Shown piece after piece: positions 629-58,210 of a stretch of DNA of 64,000 nt. This DNA comes from Pilasporangium apinafurcum. Taxonomy: Eukaryota; Oomycota; Peronosporomycetes; Pythiales; Pythiaceae. Both the position numbers and the translations under genes were made by a program. Within the stretch, counting starts at the first letter, position 1; each line of letters starts with the position of its first letter. The stretch spans positions 362,549-426,548 of the forward strand of contig BCKE01000028.1 of NCBI GenBank assembly GCA_001600495.1, read 5' to 3'. Under the pieces are notes generated by a model, which saw only the letters and a program-made list of their open reading frames with translations, was not told where the DNA came from and did no database searches.

Positions 629-1831
629 TCAGGTCGCTTTCTCAGAATATAGGATTTCCTCATCGCGAATCACACTTACTTCATCAAAATGCCGTTTCCA
701 ACTACGAATTGTGCGGTGGTTCCCATTGTCTACGCTCCACTCGATCATTCGAGCTCGACGTGAGAAATCCGACGACCCGTATGCGCGTCCGAAACCTGTG
801 CCACCACCATAGCACAACTGCACGCGGTCTATAAGGCAACAGTACTCATTCAGATGGTCGTGCCCGACAAACACGGCTTTCACCTCGTTCATTTCAGACA
901 ATGTCGACAACATCCGTAGGTTCATGCCTTGTTCATGGACCGCATCATGTTTCTCGCCGTTGCAGTTCCCATCGGACGTGAACGAGTACTCTACCAACGG
1001 AATGTGAAAGAACATGACCGCTGGTAATACGACCCCTCCACTCTTACTCTGCTCGGATTCAGAAAGTGCTCGATAGTAGTTGATCTGACTCGGCTTGATC
1101 CAGTCATACTCCGCAAACACGTACGGATACTTGTCTGTCAACGCTTCGGCCCCCGAATCGAGGAAGTACATACGGAATACACTCTCATTCTGTTTTCCCC
1201 ATACTCCATCCAAAGGTGCCTTCACGTTCAGCATGTAGTTTCCGACACCGTCCACGGATTCAGGTCCTCTCTCAGTATACGAGTGCTTCTTTTCTGACAG
1301 CATCTCAACGATTTCTTCTCGTGGGAAGTCGCCTTCATCATCATGATTGCCAAAGACCATAGCATAGGGGATGCTGCGCTGCTCAACTGCTTGAGTTACT
1401 GAATCGATTGCTCGTTGACGATCGCTCCGTTGGTAGATTTCTATGTTGTCGCCAGTGAAGACAACGAAGTCGGGCTTTTCTGCATCGAGAATATCTTCCA
1501 CGAACGATAATGTTAACGATTCGTTGCAATTGCTACTCTCCATACCTTCAGGAACAGCACTACATTTGGTCCCTAGGATACCCGATATATGTAGATCTGC
1601 CAGCTGTACAATCTTGAACACAAGTGATTGGTCGGTACTAGTGGTACTTGCAGCAGATCTGAGTAATGTCGACGCCGAGAAGGGGGGATCATCACTCGTT
1701 CCGATCAGAGTGCGAGCATGAATGGGATGCTTCTGTGTCGTCACGCCCTCGACGAAAGTAGAAGCGTTTGCCATGACGCACAATATGCTACAAAGCGAGA
1801 GCAAGCATAGTATCGGCAGAACTCGCTGCAT
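629..1831 (-). CDS. Secreted calcineurin-like metallophosphoesterase (PAP29/DCR2-like)
   Basis: Single-exon gene of 400 aa. The start chosen is the ATG at 1831; it gives a clean signal peptide (MQRVLPILCLLSLCSILCVMA), so the enzyme probably enters the secretory path. The open frame runs further upstream only to a GTG. Metallophosphatase motifs appear in order: DLH near the start of the domain, GDN (VVFTGDN), GNHD (MVFGNHDDEG), FFHIP and GHDH (FVGHDHLNEY). These are the ligands of the two-metal centre. Order and spacing match the purple acid phosphatase 29 / yeast Dcr2 type, which cleaves phosphomonoesters; the true substrate is unknown. The C-terminal part has the usual YGGGTGFG strand. It faces the MFS gene tail to tail. 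Confidence 0.85.
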   Translation of the reverse strand: MQRVLPILCLLSLCSILCVMANASTFVEGVTTQKHPIHARTLIGTSDDPPFSASTLLRSAASTTSTDQSLVFKIVQLADLHISGILGTKCSAVPEGMESSNCNESLTLSFVEDILDAEKPDFVVFTGDNIEIYQRSDRQRAIDSVTQAVEQRSIPYAMVFGNHDDEGDFPREEIVEMLSEKKHSYTERGPESVDGVGNYMLNVKAPLDGVWGKQNESVFRMYFLDSGAEALTDKYPYVFAEYDWIKPSQINYYRALSESEQSKSGGVVLPAVMFFHIPLVEYSFTSDGNCNGEKHDAVHEQGMNLRMLSTLSEMNEVKAVFVGHDHLNEYCCLIDRVQLCYGGGTGFGRAYGSSDFSRRARMIEWSVDNGNHRTIRSWKRHFDEVSVIRDEEILYSEKAT

Positions 1832-1905
1832 TTTTCGATCAAGCGCGCTGAGATCGATTCGGGTGAAGAACACTTGTGGCCGCGAATTTTCGAATGATGC
1901 ACTAC

Positions 1906-1917
1906 CCCACCGGTGGG
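1906..1917. promoter_or_regulatory. 12-bp perfect palindrome upstream of the phosphoesterase
   Basis: CCCACCGGTGGG lies 75 bp upstream of the phosphoesterase ATG, where a promoter element would sit. The sequence is a perfect inverted repeat with no spacer. A regulatory role is inference. The same core occurs at 2.63 and 58.12 kb, but there it lies inside coding relics of a transposon and reads as His-Arg-Trp-Asp. Confidence 0.25.
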
Positions 1918-2489
1918 ACTGGGACCGGGTTTGACACTACTGTGTGCATTTTCCCATTAGAAATCATTCACTATCCAATTCTGGACTCCGAGCTAAAAAA
2001 TGCCTATTGGCCCGAATGGGCTGCCATTGTACTTTACTCTGGTACAGCTGCAGCGTCGGATGGGACTAGATAATCATACCAACTCCATAATCACCATGTG
2101 GTGCCATACCGCGCTTCAAATCGCTGCGGCATAAAAGGAACTACTATATTTCATCAATCGGTTTTGACAGATCAGTGTTAAAGGACTGGTTGATCAGCTT
2201 CGCAATCCGAGTCCAACATGCCAGTCCACGTCCTCCCTCAAGAAGGAATTCAGTGGAAGATTATCCAAGCTTGCTGATTCCTTAGACCTTATCGTTACGC
2301 TCCGTGTATGACGTAGGTATCTTTGCCTAACTGATCATACTCCTTGCATGTGTGACACTGTTCAGTGCAACCATATCGTAACATAGCCACACATGAGTAT
2401 CTACACGGATTATGATCAAAAGGACAATCCGCATGTAAAAGGTTAAGCTACTCTTTTGCGCTCCACCTCCACCTACTGAAAGACTTTAC
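1918..2489. other. Intergenic, no gene seen
   Basis: About 570 bp between the phosphoesterase promoter and the first recognisable part of the IS607 relic. No long frame, RNA gene or clear repeat was found. The left end of the transposon relic may lie here but no end sequence can be identified. Confidence 0.5.
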
Positions 2490-3075
2490 TTGTTGAAGGA
2501 AGCCATCGTCCGATGGGGGCTGAAGGTTCCTCAAAAGGAAACACTTGGAATGACCATGAAGATTCAGTATATGCAACGAACTAGTGCTGCTACGTCGGGG
2601 TATTTTTCTTTACTCCCCCATTTCTCTCACCGGTGGGATATAAACTTGTTTTCAATTCTCCGCGATGAGATATTTTCTCCACTGTCCTTCTTTCCAAGAA
2701 AGGATCCAAGTCGATGACAGCGCATACCCGAGAAGATCGACATTGGTTCCAGTCTCAAGGAAAGCAAGTCAGGACTGTCCAGATTAGTAGAAATGGCACG
2801 TAAAAAGCAGATCTCGAGGATTGCGGTTACCGTTCAAGACTGATTTGAGTACGGGCTCCTCGCACAAATGTGTAAAGAGCATAGCATCCAAGTCGTGGTT
2901 CACGCTGACCAACAACTTCATCAAGACAAGAATGAAGACATGAAAGCAAGAGAACGCCTCTCATCTCATGTTAATGTCTTCGTTGTGAAAAGAAATAGAA
3001 GAAAGGTAGGAATGCGCAGAATACGCCGATCTTCAATCGCCGAGGATCAAATGACGCAAGATAGATACACCAAGT
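2490..3075 (+). pseudogene. IS607-type serine recombinase (TnpA) relic
   Basis: One frame, broken by stops, reads like an IS607 transposase. After TGA at 2715 come RIPEKIDIGSSLKESKSGL, then SRLVEMARKKQISRIAVTVQD, then a TGA where the family has the Arg of its KDRLARFG motif, then FEYGLLAQMCKEHSIQVVV and VNVFVVKRNRRK. IS607 recombinases have the pattern DIGSG-N-(K/R)KGL-LL, KDRLARFG, then E-VV and a final S-VTVF-AR helix, and all pieces fall in the right order. Upstream, HFSHRWDINLF may be the end of the MerR-like helix-turn-helix part. The catalytic Ser region (RVSS-x-KQ) is poorly preserved. At least two in-frame stops make it non-functional. It lies just before TnpB-like sequence, the normal tnpA-tnpB order. 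Family match is from memory of conserved motifs; no search was run. Confidence 0.65.
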
Positions 3076-3084
3076 CCAAACAGC

Positions 3085-3235
3085 ATCTTGAGAGTGAGAT
3101 TGTATCCAACAAAGGAACAGAAGCAACTTCTCAACAAGATGTTTGGTATCAGAAAATCTTGGAGTGTTCTCAATGACAGAGATGTCAATGCTGCTAGAAA
3201 CATCTTTTTCAAGAATGAATATCTCCAGCAGCGTC
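3085..3235 (+). pseudogene. TnpB/Fanzor2-like nuclease relic, N-terminus fused to C-terminus
   Basis: The first residues, MRVRLYPTKEQKQLLNKMFG, are the typical TnpB/Fanzor start (K-x-RLYPT-x-EQ). After about seven residues the frame jumps to DRDVNAARNIFFKNEYLQ, which is the RuvC-III motif at the other end of the protein. The WED, REC and RuvC-I/II parts and the zinc ribbon are missing, so this is an internal deletion that kept the frame. TnpB/Fanzor proteins are RNA-guided DNA nucleases carried by transposons; this one cannot be active. It follows the recombinase relic by a few bases, as expected for IS607. The end piece is closely similar in DNA to the end of the copy at 57.74 kb. Confidence 0.7.
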
Positions 3236-3782
3236 CCGTGAAAGAGAAAGACAAAGACATGACGGTACTTCCTGACAATTACGTTCCCGATACTGTCTTT
3301 GGGATCGAGCCTGGCATGCAATCGCTCTATACTCCCATTCGTGCGTGAGAAGTTGATGTGGAAGAGAAGAAAGCGAAATGTAACGGAAGGGAACCCAAGC
3401 AGAATCAAGTGAAAGAGTCAAAGCAGAAAGACAAAAGAAGCGGAAGAAAAAAAGGAAGAGGCGACGCAAGCATGGTGTTCGACGCAAGCAAGCCAGTAAC
3501 CAGCGGTACAATGTTCAACAAATGTCTACGCAAGAGTACAGGCATCTCGCCGGAATGAGCAGGTGTACTTTCTGGCACGAGAAATTGAAGCAGCGGGAAT
3601 ATGAGTACGGAAGGATTATCCGGGAGATGCCTTCGTTCAAGACAACATCGTATGACCACTATATGACAAACGTCAAGTACATGTGGAGGCGTGAATCACG
3701 TGGGAGCGAGATGTGAATGCGTCGAATAACATTCTTACACTCGCTATGTGTCTCCTACATGGATTTCCAAGACCACCAGAGT
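3236..3782 (+). pseudogene. Fanzor1-like nuclease relic (middle and C-terminal parts)
   Basis: Directly after the IS607 relic comes a different Fanzor-like sequence in several frames. The piece LPDNYVPDTVFGIEPGM resembles the RuvC-I strand (x-GIDPG), with Glu where the catalytic Asp is expected. A Lys/Arg-rich linker follows, then STQEYRHLAGMSR and REMPSFKTTSYDHYM, a block I associate with Fanzor1 proteins after RuvC-I. Near 3700, in another frame, WERDVNASNNILTLAM is a second RuvC-III motif, followed by a short tail ending at TAG near 3808. Several stops and frame changes show that it is dead. Two RuvC-III motifs within 550 bp mean that two nuclease relics abut here. Fanzor1 assignment is by motif recall. 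Confidence 0.6.
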
Positions 3783-3797
3783 TACGACGGGGAGAAA

Positions 3798-3846
3798 GAA
3801 TGTAGGAAGAGAATGGAGTGTAGGAAGAGAATGGAGTGTAGGAAAA
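3798..3846 (+). repeat. Short tandem repeat, 18-bp unit, about 2.7 copies
   Basis: The unit GAATGGAGTGTAGGAAGA is repeated at 3811 and 3829, with a shorter first copy from 3798 that lacks some bases. It lies at the end of the Fanzor1-like relic. It gives a repeated RMECRK reading in one frame but no gene is apparent. Confidence 0.8.
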
Positions 3847-3860
3847 GTATCCATGGACAG

Positions 3861-4226
3861 CGGGAGAGTCAACCGACTTCTCAAACGTGTCCACACGGTT
3901 AGGCCGTATTCTGGTAATTGCCAGTAATCTTCAGCACTCTAGCTGACGATGAATGCAGTGTTCATTGGTCTATTTTTGGCAGTAATGCCGCTATTAGTAA
4001 TTCCGAAGCAGACGTCATCGTGCGGCGGGACTCTTTCAAATTGCTCTTCGCTTATCAGCATTAATTGCCGTTCACGCGCGTGTGGTCCGCTTATCCAGTT
4101 CAAAAGTGGAGCAGGCAGACAACATTAACGTTGTGGAACGTTATCAGCTCTTAGACACGCGGATAATGGTCTATCGGTGAACATTTATTATTTCCAAAAT
4201 TTCAGAGGATTGACTGATCGTTTGTT
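3861..4226. other. Intergenic, promoter region of the EF-hand gene
   Basis: About 370 bp between the transposon relic and the ATG at 4227. No frame or RNA gene stands out. The 60 bp before the ATG are AT-rich (around TTTATTATTTCCAAAATTTC), consistent with a promoter and leader, but no defined element can be named. Confidence 0.5.
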
Positions 4227-7200
4227 ATGGTGTCTCCGCGATTTGTTCGAAATGGCGGCAAGTCCGTGTTCGCCAATCTTCACGAGGTAGACTCACGAAA
4301 CAAACAAAATACTGAAGACAACCCCACAGAACCACCATTAGTTCAAAGAAAAATCGGGAAGAAATACGAAGCGCCGATGTATGAAGACACCAAAAGCGGT
4401 GAGAAGCATCGAAATGGCGGTGATAAAGCGCAGAAGACCACCATGGGCATCATGAGTGGGGGAGAAGATGAAAAGAAGCGGCTTAAACGACTGGAAGTTC
4501 AAGTTCGGCAAGCGTTGATACCATTTGTGAATGGAGGTGTGGGCCAAAAAAGCTCGATCCCAGCGGCAGCTACCATCAAGAAATTTCTCACACACGCGTC
4601 AGAACAAAAAAGAAGAAACGAAGGTGTGATTACTGCCAGCGAGTTTCGAAAATGCCTATTCGCATTGGGATTAGCGTCAGAGGATTGTGCATTCTTATTG
4701 GATCAGTTGGATCGAACTGGCACGGGTGTGATTGATGCAAGGTTCTTCTCCACGAAATTTTTACCCAATACTGGCAATGGAACTACCACGCGGACTTTTG
4801 ATGACGAAAATAATAAAAACACCAAGACTCTCATTCATCAAAATGGATTTGCTTCGAACAATTCGAGGAATCTTGGTGTAAGTGGTGATCGAGATGTCAA
4901 GGAATTGCATCGCAAAGTTATAGAGCGCGTATTACTAAGGAGCAAGAATCAGAATTTGAAAGACACATTTCGGCAATATGATCTGGATCGGACAGGACTA
5001 TTAACACTACCCCAATTTCGAACGATGATGCGCGACCACGGGTTTGTGGGTGCAGATGTCGAGCTGCTTATCAAATATCTCGATCGGAACAACCAACAAG
5101 CTGTTTCATTCAATGCATTTATGGCGGGTGTGAAGCTAGGGTCCGAACAAGGTTACATTAAACACTCGCCAAAAAAGCAGCAACTCGCTTTGCCGTTAGG
5201 AGCTCCAAAGGGTGGGAAGGCATCGGGTGTTAAATCGTCACCTACTCATTTGCCTGAAGATCCGATGGAAATGATTCGGGGCAAGTTACGACAGCGTGTC
5301 ATGGGCCACAACAAAACTATTCGTGAGATATTTATGGAATTTGATCTCGACAACAGCGGATCTTTAGACTATGAAGAATTCAAGCGATTTATGGCAAAGT
5401 ATAACTTTACTGCTGAAGAAACATCGATGGTCGTGGAATATTTAGACAGAGATTTCTCTGGCACAATTGATTACGACGAATTTGCAGCTGGTTTACTCTT
5501 TTATCGTCCACCTCCTGCAGCACTTCCACAGTCTATCCAATTGTCAATCGCCCGTTCAGATAAACCAAACCCGCCCAAGAATGCCATTGCAGACGGAGAG
5601 CAAATACTGTATGAAGTTCAAGACAAGTTGAACAAGCACCTACAGAAGTTGAAGGAAAACAACGGACAGCGCGTGAATCTGCGAGAGGAATTTGCTAAGT
5701 ATGATGTAGATGGAACTAATTCACTTGACTACCAAGAGTTTGGTGCATTTTTGGTGAGCATGGGAATCAAATTGCGTGCTGCAGAAATGACGTCGCTGAT
5801 TGAAAGCATTGATACTGATGGTTCTGAAAGCATCAATTTCGACGAATTCATCAAGCTATTTTGTCAGCATGATGCAACTGTCGATGAAAGCACTAGTGAG
5901 TGCAGCGACGATGATCACCAGTCGTCCAGTGATCAGGAAGACAGAGAACTTCTTGCGGTATTTAACAAGTATAATGCTGATAAAAGCGGATATCTAGACT
6001 ATGATGAACTTCGGCAATTGATGCGAGATCATGATTTTTCAGAAGCTGAAGTCGCCCAAGTGATTAAACAAATTGATCAAGACGGAATTAATCATGAGAA
6101 TAAACGAGATCTAAAGACAAAAGGCCGAAGGAGGGTTGATTACGAGACATTTGCATCTGTTGTTAGTAATAAGAAGTGGAAAATGAAAATCACGCGGAAA
6201 GAAGATATGTCCTCATTGACTAACCAGGCACAGAGCAAAATATCATCATTGGAGGGTCAGCTTGCTCAGTGGATGAAACGTGTTCTTCGCAATCATCGAT
6301 CTGTGGAAGAAGCCTTCTATCAACATGATACGGACGGAAGTAGGGAGCTTGACCATGATGAGTTTCGAAGATTTATGAAACATTATGGAATGAAAAGAGA
6401 CGAAGATATCAATGCGCTGATTAATCAACTTGACTCTGATGGGAACGGATTAATTAGCTACAGCGAATTTGCACATCTTTTTGGGAATGGAAGACAGAAA
6501 TCGAGCGTACGTAAAACACAGCAAGTTAGCTATGAACAAAACGAATTCCAAAAAAACAAATTGAATCGGAAAAAATCAAATGAAGACGCGAAGGGCACAT
6601 TAACGTTGTTGCGAATGGATGAGCTTCGTTTCATGGAACAAGTGCTTCGATCACATGACTCTATGGAAGCCGCATTTCGCGAATATGATCAAGATCAGCG
6701 TAATGAACTCGACTACGAACAGTTTCGAGAATTTATGGGAGAATATGGTCTTAGTGACGAATCCAAGATATCGCTATTGCTTAGGCGATTGGACACCGAT
6801 AATTCTGGTTCAGTAGATATAGACGAGTTTCTTTCCGTTTTCAATGAGCAGCGCCTTGCTCAATATCAAAAGCAAGAAACAGGTAGCAAAAACCACAATA
6901 GTGGTGAGATTTCTGAGAAACGTATGAGAACAGTTCGACTACGACAGCTTGAGGAACACTGGATCTCTGAAGTCTTGGCTAGCCATCACACTATTCGTGA
7001 CGTCTTTTGCCAATACAGTCGGGACCAGAATGGAGAGTTGACTCTTCAGGAATTCACTGCGTTGATGAATGCATTTGGGATTGATGACCCAAAGGATATT
7101 AGCTTATTAGTCAAACGCCTTGATGTGGACCAGTCGGGGTGTATCGATTATGATGAATTTTCTATGATTTTTCATGAATCACGAGTTAAGCAACTAGATA

Positions 7201-8297
7201 AAGGTCAACCATCAGCATTTCCGGACCCACGGCTCAGTCGTCAGAGTATTGTACCTGCAGTTAGTCAAGCAGAGTCGAAAAAGGCGCGCGCCGCTCGAAT
7301 GAGGGAATTAGAAGTTAAATGGATGAAGCGAGTGCTGAGTTGCCATAGCTCCATTGAAACTGCGTTTCGTGATTACGATAAAAACGGCAACGGAGAGCTG
7401 GATCACGAAGAGTTTCGCTATTTCATGAAGCGGTATGGGATTGGACAAGAAGATGACATCAATTTTCTCATTCGACGATTGGATTTGAATGGATCGGGAA
7501 CTATTGATTTCGACGAATTCTCAACAGTTTTCAATCCTTTACGCATTAACCAAGACAAGCACTCTGGTAAACTGAACGGAATTTTTTCAACAATGCCAGA
7601 TGACGATTCTATGGATGCTGATGAACTTGAGGCAATCTTAGAAATTGAAAGGGAACTTGCCACCCGAATGCTGGAGAAAACCCGGGACCTTCGACAAGCT
7701 TTCCATAAATTTGACTTGAATGGTAACGGGCGCTTGGAATACAAAGAATTTCGGGCTGTGTTGAAATCCTACCGACTTCCTGAGATGGAGATTCGTAAGG
7801 TGATTCGCCATCTTGATCGAGATGTGTCTGGCTTTATCGATTATAAAAAATTCATTGCTGGATTTTCAATTGCCAAAGAGGGCGGGTCATCTTCACCCGG
7901 TGGAGAGCGGAAACAGAGTCGATACAAGGTTTCGCGTGTTTCACAAGCGCCGATTAATAGGAAAAGAATGTTAAACAAAGTCAGCGAATCTACACCCGGT
8001 ATTTCTGATCGGCATCCTGATGAGCAAATCGCCAATGACACTGCTATAGAAACAGTAAAAAAGCAGCTTTTGACTAATATCCTAGCGACATATGGAACGG
8101 TTCAATCTGTGTTTCGGCGATACGATGAAGGGAAACAGGGGCGCCTGACTGAGGCACAATTTGAGGCGTTAGTGCTTGATCATGGAGTTTCTAAGGCCGA
8201 TGCAGCTATGCTATTGGATATTTTTGATCAGGATCAGTCCGGAACAATCGAGTATGGCGAGTTTCTGTCACAACTGGTAGTTCGGGCAGGCGTGTGA
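4227..8297 (+). CDS. Giant EF-hand protein with 11 EF-hand pairs
   Basis: Intronless gene of 1356 aa with no signal peptide or membrane segment. After a basic N-terminus of about 80 residues, a module of about 75 residues repeats 11 times. Each module holds a helix (for example KWMKRVLSCHSSIETAF), a first calcium loop such as DYDKNGNGELDHEEF, a linker helix and a second loop such as DLNGSGTIDFDEF. Many loops keep the D-x-D/N-x-D/S-G-x-I/L-x-x-x-E pattern and should bind calcium. The first pair is degenerate. The second loop of pair 5 is split by about 10 basic residues (around residue 620). Linkers are charged and variable. The role is unknown: a calcium buffer or a long scaffold, perhaps in the cytoskeleton or flagellum. 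The family is clear; the function is not. Confidence 0.85.
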   Translation: MVSPRFVRNGGKSVFANLHEVDSRNKQNTEDNPTEPPLVQRKIGKKYEAPMYEDTKSGEKHRNGGDKAQKTTMGIMSGGEDEKKRLKRLEVQVRQALIPFVNGGVGQKSSIPAAATIKKFLTHASEQKRRNEGVITASEFRKCLFALGLASEDCAFLLDQLDRTGTGVIDARFFSTKFLPNTGNGTTTRTFDDENNKNTKTLIHQNGFASNNSRNLGVSGDRDVKELHRKVIERVLLRSKNQNLKDTFRQYDLDRTGLLTLPQFRTMMRDHGFVGADVELLIKYLDRNNQQAVSFNAFMAGVKLGSEQGYIKHSPKKQQLALPLGAPKGGKASGVKSSPTHLPEDPMEMIRGKLRQRVMGHNKTIREIFMEFDLDNSGSLDYEEFKRFMAKYNFTAEETSMVVEYLDRDFSGTIDYDEFAAGLLFYRPPPAALPQSIQLSIARSDKPNPPKNAIADGEQILYEVQDKLNKHLQKLKENNGQRVNLREEFAKYDVDGTNSLDYQEFGAFLVSMGIKLRAAEMTSLIESIDTDGSESINFDEFIKLFCQHDATVDESTSECSDDDHQSSSDQEDRELLAVFNKYNADKSGYLDYDELRQLMRDHDFSEAEVAQVIKQIDQDGINHENKRDLKTKGRRRVDYETFASVVSNKKWKMKITRKEDMSSLTNQAQSKISSLEGQLAQWMKRVLRNHRSVEEAFYQHDTDGSRELDHDEFRRFMKHYGMKRDEDINALINQLDSDGNGLISYSEFAHLFGNGRQKSSVRKTQQVSYEQNEFQKNKLNRKKSNEDAKGTLTLLRMDELRFMEQVLRSHDSMEAAFREYDQDQRNELDYEQFREFMGEYGLSDESKISLLLRRLDTDNSGSVDIDEFLSVFNEQRLAQYQKQETGSKNHNSGEISEKRMRTVRLRQLEEHWISEVLASHHTIRDVFCQYSRDQNGELTLQEFTALMNAFGIDDPKDISLLVKRLDVDQSGCIDYDEFSMIFHESRVKQLDKGQPSAFPDPRLSRQSIVPAVSQAESKKARAARMRELEVKWMKRVLSCHSSIETAFRDYDKNGNGELDHEEFRYFMKRYGIGQEDDINFLIRRLDLNGSGTIDFDEFSTVFNPLRINQDKHSGKLNGIFSTMPDDDSMDADELEAILEIERELATRMLEKTRDLRQAFHKFDLNGNGRLEYKEFRAVLKSYRLPEMEIRKVIRHLDRDVSGFIDYKKFIAGFSIAKEGGSSSPGGERKQSRYKVSRVSQAPINRKRMLNKVSESTPGISDRHPDEQIANDTAIETVKKQLLTNILATYGTVQSVFRRYDEGKQGRLTEAQFEALVLDHGVSKADAAMLLDIFDQDQSGTIEYGEFLSQLVVRAGV

Positions 8298-26521: not shown

Positions 26522-26594
26522 CGTCCTTGAAGGGACTCGAACCCTCAATCTCCGCCTTCGGAGGGCGATGCCTTATCCATTAGGCCACAAGGAC
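26522..26594 (-). tRNA. tRNA-Arg (anticodon CCG)
   Basis: 73-nt cloverleaf on the minus strand. Acceptor GTCCTTG pairs with CAAGGAC. The D arm is GCCTAATGGATAAGGC. The anticodon stem TCGCC/GGCGG closes the loop CTCCGAA, so the anticodon is CCG (Arg, codon CGG). The T arm is GAGGGTTCGAGTCCCTT. CCA is not encoded, as in eukaryotes. It is the first of three near-identical copies here. Confidence 0.97.
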
Positions 26595-27207
26595 TTCTGG
26601 TTACCAACCATTGCCTTTTGCATACTGTACAAAAACTGTGTCATTCCGTTGTAAGCTTGAAGCGCCAAAAAAGATACCGCCACACATCAAACTGTTACCA
26701 ACTGGAACAATTTCCAAAGACATTGTTTTATGCGGTTATTGCCTACACATGTGCAGATAGGTGCTGCTACTCGGAGTCTGAATGTTACTACCCATAACCC
26801 ATGTGCATGTGTTCTCCTAGCAAAGTTGTGTTGCGGAGAGCCGCTGTGCAATGGCCGCTTTAATCTGCAACAGTAGAGACCAGTCGGGGTAACCCACACT
26901 CATTCCTTGTTGTTCATGTATCTACATTGACAGTACGTGGCAAACTCTCTATTTGCAATTACTCATCTGGACGACTATATCAATGCATTTCCCCGCGTCA
27001 ATACATTAGATTGGCGGACACAATTGCAGAAGATCGATATCTGGTAGAACAGAGTGGTCGTAGCATACCGTGGTAGCAGCGATAATTACGAAACTTTTCA
27101 CATAAATTTAAGAATTTTGGGGTTACCGGCATTATCTTGCGTGTCATCTTTCTAACGTATGATACTTTTTTACAGTGGATACAACTTCAAATGAGTGGCA
27201 AACAGCA
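26595..27207. other. Intergenic between tRNA genes, no gene seen
   Basis: About 610 bp without a supported frame or RNA gene. Confidence 0.5.
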
Positions 27208-27208
27208 G

Positions 27209-27281
27209 TCTTTGTGGCCTAATGGATAAGGCATCGCCCTCCGAAGGCGGAGATTGAGGGTTCGAGTCCCTTCAAGGACGT
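27209..27281 (+). tRNA. tRNA-Arg (anticodon CCG), second copy
   Basis: Same gene as at 26522 but on the plus strand. It differs by one base in the acceptor stem: GTCTTTG instead of GTCCTTG, which gives a U-G pair with CAAGGAC. All other arms are identical. The end coordinate may be off by one base. Confidence 0.95.
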
Positions 27282-27996
27282 GTTTTGTCCTGTTTCGTGT
27301 CACGGGATACTCTTGAAGCTTTTCGATCACCGCCCAGGAAACAGAGAACCGTGAAATCGGATATGTCTTTATACTACCAATTTTGACCAAGCGAATATAA
27401 TAAATGCACATCGTCATATTTGCGATGGTATCCTTCGATAGATCAGGGACTCATCCTTTCCAAGCGGGCAACGTTGCTCGCATTTACTGGATTTGCATGT
27501 TAGCTCAGTGTTTGCAGCAACTGGTGATACTCCGCATCTTTCTTTGGTGTTGCTACTGCTACATGTTCGATCTAATTTGGTGGTAGCCTTCCCGCGGTCA
27601 ACCAAAACCTAGATCAACTTATATCTCGCACGATCATATCCACTTTAGTATCGTGCTAGCATCATTTACTTAGCATAAGTAACAGCAATGAAATCAGGAG
27701 AGGTAAATGCGATTGCAATGGGTTTTGTACTTGAACGCTATCACAATCATCTTCATCGAAAATGTGAATTGTAGCTTCCACATATAGCGAACACAATTGC
27801 AAAGCATAAGAACGAGATACATGCTGCTATAGATCTATAACTAACACAATGAAAAACATATCACATTCGCAAATTGCATCATCCCTATCATCCTCCTTCG
27901 AAGGATGTTAACTCGATTAGATTTGCCAATCAACGATGTATCGTTATGCTTCCGTTCTCCCGCAGGACCCGAATTAAAACGAAAATTTGCCAAATT
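27282..27996. other. Intergenic between tRNA genes, no gene seen
   Basis: About 715 bp, AT-rich in places, with no frame or RNA gene I can support. Short frames here partly read through the tRNA sequences in reverse. Confidence 0.5.
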
Positions 27997-28069
27997 CGTC
28001 CTTGAAGGGACTCGAACCCTCAATCTCCGCCTTCGGAGGGCGATGCCTTATCCATTAGGCCACAAGGAC
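27997..28069 (-). tRNA. tRNA-Arg (anticodon CCG), third copy
   Basis: Identical over all 73 nt to the copy at 26522 and in the same orientation. It lies about 315 bp upstream of the 3-hydroxyacyl-CoA dehydrogenase start, on the other strand. Confidence 0.97.
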
Positions 28070-28218
28070 AGGACATCGCAGCTGCAATATCCTATCAGAA
28101 CTTTTGAGTGGTTCACAACTGTTACCCAATCGCAACCCACAAGAAGATTGATGTGTGTCATTCACGTTAAGTACGATTGTCTAAAGATACCTCACTTATT
28201 CGATAATTATCTTATTGT

Positions 28219-57738: not shown

Positions 57739-58210
57739 CTAGGAGAGTAGGTGTTCATTCTTAAGAAAGATGTTTCTCGCAGCATTGGCATCCCTATCGA
57801 GAATGAACTTGCAGTGAGGGCACTGAAAGACTTTTTGGTGCTCGATCGCGTGGTTGATTCTCCCACACTGAGAACAAGTATTTGTTGTAAAGTGTTCCTT
57901 ACAGTCGTATGTATGATGCTTGCCTTCCTTTCGCACCGATACTACCGTGCCACATTTTCTGGACAGTTATTTTGATTCTCCACGCACTCGATCTCCTCGG
58001 GCATGCACTGTCATCGCTTCATATCCGTTCTTGAAAAGAAGAATGGTGCTCATTGCGGAGAATTGGAAACAAGTTTCTGCTTCTATCGATAGAGAAGAGA
58101 AAATAGGTCAAAGTATATCCCACCGGTGGGAGAAGTGAGGGAATAAAGGTTAAAAAATGTCATTCATTCTCCTGGAGCTTCTTGCTCCTTGAGAATTCTT
58201 CCAATGTACC
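57739..58210 (-). mobile_element. Deletion derivative of the IS607/Fanzor element
   Basis: On the minus strand, from about 58210 to 57985, DNA similar to 2530-2745 encodes the N-terminal part of the IS607 recombinase (PHFSHRWDI and the stretch around NLFPILRNE). After a junction near 57965 comes the C-terminus of a TnpB/Fanzor2-like nuclease: CKEHFTTNTCSQCGRI, KVFQCPHCKFILD, then RDANAARNIFLKNEH and a stop at 57739. The four Cys of the zinc ribbon (CSQC, CPHC) and the RuvC-III Asp are intact. All between, over 1 kb in a full element, is gone. This is a short non-autonomous type copy. It shares its end sequence with the copy at 3.2 kb. Confidence 0.7.

Follow-up and report, generated by a model that had tools for sequence, protein, structure and literature searches.

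The window (the whole 64-kb stretch of DNA that was analysed) contains two relics, copy 1 (about 2600-3225, forward strand) and copy 2 (58148-57749, reverse strand), which are very probably two dead members, each with internal deletions, of a single eukaryotic IS607-type transposon family coding for a serine recombinase (TnpA) and a TnpB/Fanzor2-type RNA-guided nuclease. The remnants of both genes are present in the gene order of that family, the internal deletions differ between the two copies, and the coding sequence is damaged by a stop codon and by frameshifts. The relics thus document the IS607 serine-recombinase part next to a Fanzor2-type nuclease, probably in the nuclear DNA of a eukaryote, and at least two decayed copies are present, so that the family would once have multiplied in this genome. 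The features of both copies, and of a further nuclease relic next to copy 1, are collected in Table 1; copy 2 and the downstream relic were absent from the initial annotation of this DNA.

Table 1. Features of the two IS607-type relics and of the adjoining nuclease relic, in window coordinates.
Feature	Position	Strand	Evidence
Possible TnpA N-terminal helix-turn-helix remnant (KIQYM..RTSAATSGYF), frame-broken	2490..2614	+	tentative, by eye against IS607 TnpA sequences
Stretch common to copies 1 and 2, immediately 5' of the readable recombinase	2622..2740	+	72.5% over 120 columns
IS607-type TnpA relic with TGA	2739..2942	+	NF033518, 3lhf, profile score 33.9
Probable decayed TnpA C-terminus (VNVFVVKRN region)	2943..3062	+	open in the recombinase frame
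N-terminal HTH_OrfB segment of the TnpB/Fanzor2-type nuclease	3088..3147	+	PF12323 (HTH_OrfB_IS605) E 2.2e-7; NF038281 E 3.8e-4; profile score 28.3
Zinc finger second-half remnant (QKILECSQ), other frame	3150..3174	+	DNA alignment to copy 2
RuvC-III end of the copy 1 nuclease, DRDVNAARNIFFKNEYL	3175..3224	+	84% over 50 nt to copy 2; motif count
RuvC-I-like motif of the second nuclease relic, FGIEPGMQSLYT	3298..3333	+	1 in the window vs 1 match in 300 shuffles
Open piece (EYRHLAG...MPSFKTTS...KYMW) of the second nuclease relic	3384..3713	+	open frame
RuvC-III end of the second nuclease relic, ERDVNASNNILTL...	3695..3802	+	motif, DNA comparison
Copy 2 stretch corresponding to the 5' part of copy 1	57988..58148	-	DNA alignment
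Copy 2 TnpB/Fanzor2-type C-terminus, complete C4 zinc finger and RuvC-III	57745..57942	-	PF07282, NF038280, 9b0l

Judging by its sequence, the recombinase part of copy 1 is a TnpA serine recombinase of IS607 type. The query spanned 2733-3062 in one frame, with X for the TGA, and its residues 3-70 (2739-2942) matched NF033518, the NCBIfam IS607 transposase profile, with an E-value of 3.8e-7; the alignment covers 69 of the 187 profile positions and, as a fragment should, stays with 29.8 bits under the whole-protein cut-off of 110. PHROG 6620, a transposase family, was matched with an E-value of 3.8e-7, and the closest solved structures are 3lhf (Serine Recombinase; E 3.4e-5) and 3ilx (first ORF in transposon ISC1904). 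In the alignment to solved relatives, the in-frame TGA (2841-2843) falls at or near the Arg of the family motif D-R-L-x-R-F, which agrees with its earlier placement at the family Arg, and the three family residues right after it are absent. The peptides DIGSSLKESKSGL and SRIAVTVQD, the TGA, VNVFVVKRN and RLYPTKEQKQLLNKMFG were all found in the order given by the initial annotation. Its proposed IS607 TnpA match over 2730-3075 is borne out by NF033518 in the first part of this interval, the family match ending at about 2942. For this reason, the VNVFVVKRN region (2943-3062) received no profile support; by its likeness, it is probably a decayed TnpA C-terminus. PF00239 (resolvase), which had likewise been put forward as a check, was not among the Pfam results for the recombinase piece, the sole listed match being ACT_8 at 0.0045, below cut-off; this counts against the IS607 reading, yet is not surprising given the shortness of the relic. 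A six-frame motif scan of 2200-2745 gave no catalytic-serine segment, and the best local profile match begins downstream of that segment. Profile searches over 2490-2614 provided no support for the helix-turn-helix remnant.

The TnpB gene is located on the same strand directly downstream of the TnpA remnant, and its N-terminal HTH_OrfB segment and its RuvC-III end are recognisable. Profile libraries thus recover the remnants of both genes in the tnpA-tnpB layout of bacterial IS607, as had been claimed; however, the distance from VNVFVVKRN to the nuclease start is 100 bases (2996 to 3097) and not a few. The nuclease had also been described as having lost everything between its N-terminus and RuvC-III while staying in frame. 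Copy 1 retains part of the zinc finger (QKILECSQ) and this remnant lies in another frame, with 14 nt missing ahead of RuvC-III (DRDVNAARN) according to the alignment to copy 2; the open frame strings together sequence from two different original frames, which makes the description as in frame misleading. The pattern RD.NA..NI occurs three times in the 64-kb window versus one match in 300 dinucleotide shuffles, a chance rate that is optimistic for a pattern written post hoc. RuvC-I was recognised in neither copy 1 nor copy 2 from the single best local profile match per stretch.

Copy 2 belongs to the same family as copy 1 and carries other deletions; it lacks most of the recombinase as well as the beginning of the nuclease. 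Its C-terminus exceeds the curated cut-off of PF07282 (E 1.4e-13) and matches NF038280 (IS607_TnpB) with an E-value of 5e-9, under the whole-protein cut-off; the closest solved structure is 9b0l (E 5.3e-8; runner-up 2.1e-5), the TnpB-like protein L79, which we take to be a mimivirus Fanzor2. The C4 zinc finger with RD (RuvC-III) after it is complete in copy 2 and partial in copy 1. For this zinc finger of copy 2, the best plasmid match is a cyanobacterial TnpB located beside an IS607 TnpA with one in-frame TAG. The two copies agree at 72.5% over 120 columns in the 5' stretch and at 84% over 50 in the RuvC-III end, and homology between them is no longer clear past the coding piece. Of the 17 codons in the RuvC-III stretch that the copies share, 4 show synonymous and 3 nonsynonymous differences, which is at most weakly consistent with divergence at a time when the sequence still coded. 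The different internal deletions of the two copies agree with a transposon family that was formerly multiplying. The string CACCGGTGGG, which surrounds the palindrome CACCGGTG, is present in both relics (at 2628 and 58121-58128) and also at 1908, shortly upstream of the initial Met (1831) of a phosphoesterase ORF.

The copy 1 assignments, which exceed chance, were compared with controls by a frameshift-tolerant profile comparison, which reports one best local match per stretch. The recombinase scored 33.9 and the nuclease start 28.3, and the best of 52 controls from the same window reached 21.6 and 23.2, respectively. The comparison loci came from a genome-contig scan (38), a viral scan (3), 6 of 35 plasmid records, and the record of locus L001 (two more); after near-duplicates and length outliers were dropped, 12 of 31 TnpA and 10 of 27 TnpB sequences were retained for the profiles. 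Since 11 of the 12 TnpA sequences are archaeal by record title, that profile is not adapted to eukaryotic IS607. Neither the exact reversal of the recombinase piece nor a loosely scrambled 109-residue sequence matched any family. No relative was confirmed when viral contigs were scanned with one protein piece at a time (recombinase, zinc finger, middle, N-terminus).

Immediately 3' of copy 1 lies the relic of a further nuclease of the TnpB/Fanzor superfamily (3298-3802, forward strand). Its own profile score of 21.4 is inside the background, and thus the assignment rests on two correctly ordered motifs, GIEPGMQSLYT at 3301 and RDVNASNNI at 3707. Each pattern gave one match in 300 shuffles; both were composed after inspection of the sequence, so these chance rates for the RuvC-I-like and RuvC-III motifs are optimistic. 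No zinc finger was seen between the two motifs, and the middle part (EYRHLAG...) may be Fanzor1-like. The joined relic had no Pfam match below 0.2 and no NCBIfam match, comparison with solved structures gave no useful match, and the structure modelled for 3384-3713 from the sequence alone had low confidence (pTM 0.28). In viral contigs, a bait-alignment scan (295 stretches) confirmed no relative of the downstream relic, and a search with two DNA patterns confirmed none either, its 13 loci having the motif in an open frame in 10 cases and RD.NA in none of these 10. A perfect 18-bp tandem repeat of 2.4 copies (3801-3844) is found where the relic ends, and the RNA fold of 3720-3850 has a z-score of -1.72, with 9 of 200 shuffles equally good.

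The relic region is flanked by divergent ORFs for a calcineurin-like phosphoesterase (629-1936, reverse strand) and a multi-EF-hand protein (4218-8297, forward strand); the latter is an open frame of 1359 codons with 10 stretches matching the EF-hand pair PF13499. Other ORFs in the window contain WD40/beta-propeller, carboxyltransferase, 3-hydroxyacyl-CoA dehydrogenase, lipid-droplet hydrolase, and P-type ATPase domains. This predicted content fits a eukaryotic nuclear genome, and the nuclear setting proposed in the initial annotation is probable in view of the eukaryotic-looking ORFs nearby (multi-EF-hand, WD40/beta-propeller, lipid-droplet hydrolase). Going by where Fanzor2 has been published to occur, the host may be an oomycete. 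Three tRNA-Arg(ccg) genes on alternating strands are located within 1.6 kb at 26522-28070. An ordinary host gene was considered as the identity of the relic region and rejected.

The relationship between copy 1 and the downstream relic admits several readings. Both could derive from one scrambled nuclease, whose N-terminus would be that at 3088, with the RuvC-I motif of 3301 and the RuvC-III motif of 3707, and into which a second copy inserted the C-terminal scrap at 3150-3224; the pieces share a strand, their order is plausible, and a single frame stays open over 3055-3345. We consider this unlikely, as the scrap at 3175-3224 belongs to the family of copy 2, which also has recombinase-side sequence, and the RuvC-III at 3707 differs in its residues. 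Moreover, the distance from the N-terminus to RuvC-I corresponds to 173 TnpB profile positions versus 71 codons here, scrap included, and a single nuclease therefore needs a further loss of about 100 or more residues. We favour instead two nucleases, of which the second (from about 3225-3300) is probably a separate element juxtaposed to copy 1 by insertion or deletion. That the downstream relic is a Fanzor1-type gene carried in one IS607 element together with the recombinase and the Fanzor2-type nuclease is highly improbable; if true, such a gene inside an IS607 element would be a missing link. The adjoining relic nevertheless offers a concrete site for asking whether Fanzor1-type genes travelled with IS607 recombinases, and apart from this question the locus is an ordinary transposon graveyard.

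Three further alternatives concern the transposon reading itself. Chance likeness in low-constraint intergenic DNA might be suspected from short pieces with broken frames; however, several libraries concur on the recombinase and nuclease matches, the controls are clearly lower, and the second copy has a complete zinc finger. We rejected chance similarity, whose probability we regard as negligible, since the PF07282 match of copy 2 contradicts it. IS607 is mainly prokaryotic, and the pieces could accordingly be bacterial contamination or a recent bacterial insertion and not an old resident element. This origin, to which we attach hardly any credence, was rejected because the two copies are decayed and diverged, stand on opposite strands at a distance of 55 kb, and have eukaryotic-looking ORFs around them, and because tblastn of the recombinase gave no match in plasmids (E up to 10) or phages (E up to 1). 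It is also very unlikely that a remnant was kept for a function, for instance that intact copies mobilise it as a non-autonomous element or that DNA at its nuclease 3' end produces a guide RNA. The 3' end of the nuclease coding sequence does survive in both relics, and a right-end guide RNA encoded nearby is described for this group (PMC10711439); against such retention, just two copies were seen, 72-84% alike, the predicted RNA folds of the two 3' ends do not surpass those of shuffled sequences (z -0.87 and -0.45), and the clear homology between the copies ends with the coding piece.

On the reading as dead IS607-type copies, the family's TnpA serine recombinase would have moved the element, and the TnpB/Fanzor2-type RNA-guided nuclease is thought to help keep it in the population. 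By the descriptions in PMC10711439 and PMC6188088, an intact element would be double-stranded DNA inserted by the recombinase at short dinucleotide sites, with the nuclease guided by RNA from the right end of the element. Neither inverted repeats nor a target duplication are expected of an IS607 transposon. We infer that the element spread through the genome by recombinase-driven insertion, and that the copies then lost most of both genes and have presumably drifted without function since. Judged from sequence, no part of either relic looks functional; the copies are unlikely to move because the recombinase contains a stop, its catalytic-serine segment was not found, and RuvC-I was recognised in neither copy by best local profile match.

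IS607-like elements with Fanzor2 are known from eukaryotes and giant viruses (Bao and Jurka, 2013; PMC3627910), and Fanzor2 families are listed there for Phytophthora sojae, P. capsici, and P. ramorum; the recombinase examples that this paper names, in a list that reads 'such as', include no Phytophthora element. A 2023 study (PMC10711439) confirms the link between Fanzor2 and IS607, places Fanzor2s also in a few non-IS607 transposons, and surveys Fanzor1s as apparently not encoded in IS607 transposons. Among the papers searched, none joined Fanzor, IS607, and oomycetes, or TnpB, serine recombinase, and oomycetes, and those with IS607 and oomycetes were a Bacillus genome paper and a transposable-element classification paper. 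With the Fanzor2-bearing elements, as described in PMC3627910, the relics share the serine recombinase found in some, the TnpB-like nuclease, its HTH_OrfB N-terminus found in some, and the C4 zinc finger followed by RD; in contrast to these elements, both copies here are dead and internally deleted, and one of them adjoins a second nuclease relic. With bacterial IS607 (TnpA plus TnpB) they share the gene order and the matches to the NF033518 and NF038280 profiles, whereas the setting here is probably eukaryotic and only fragments are left. In the downstream relic, GIEPG is one residue off the DPG RuvC-I signature of the Fanzor lineage (PMC10711439), and its RD.NA end is a likeness to Fanzor nucleases as well; the DPG signature is common to Fanzor1, Fanzor2, and related TnpBs according to the same study and therefore does not single out Fanzor1. 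The kind of element represented by copies 1 and 2 is already known in eukaryotes, and the two relics are degraded, dead new examples of it.
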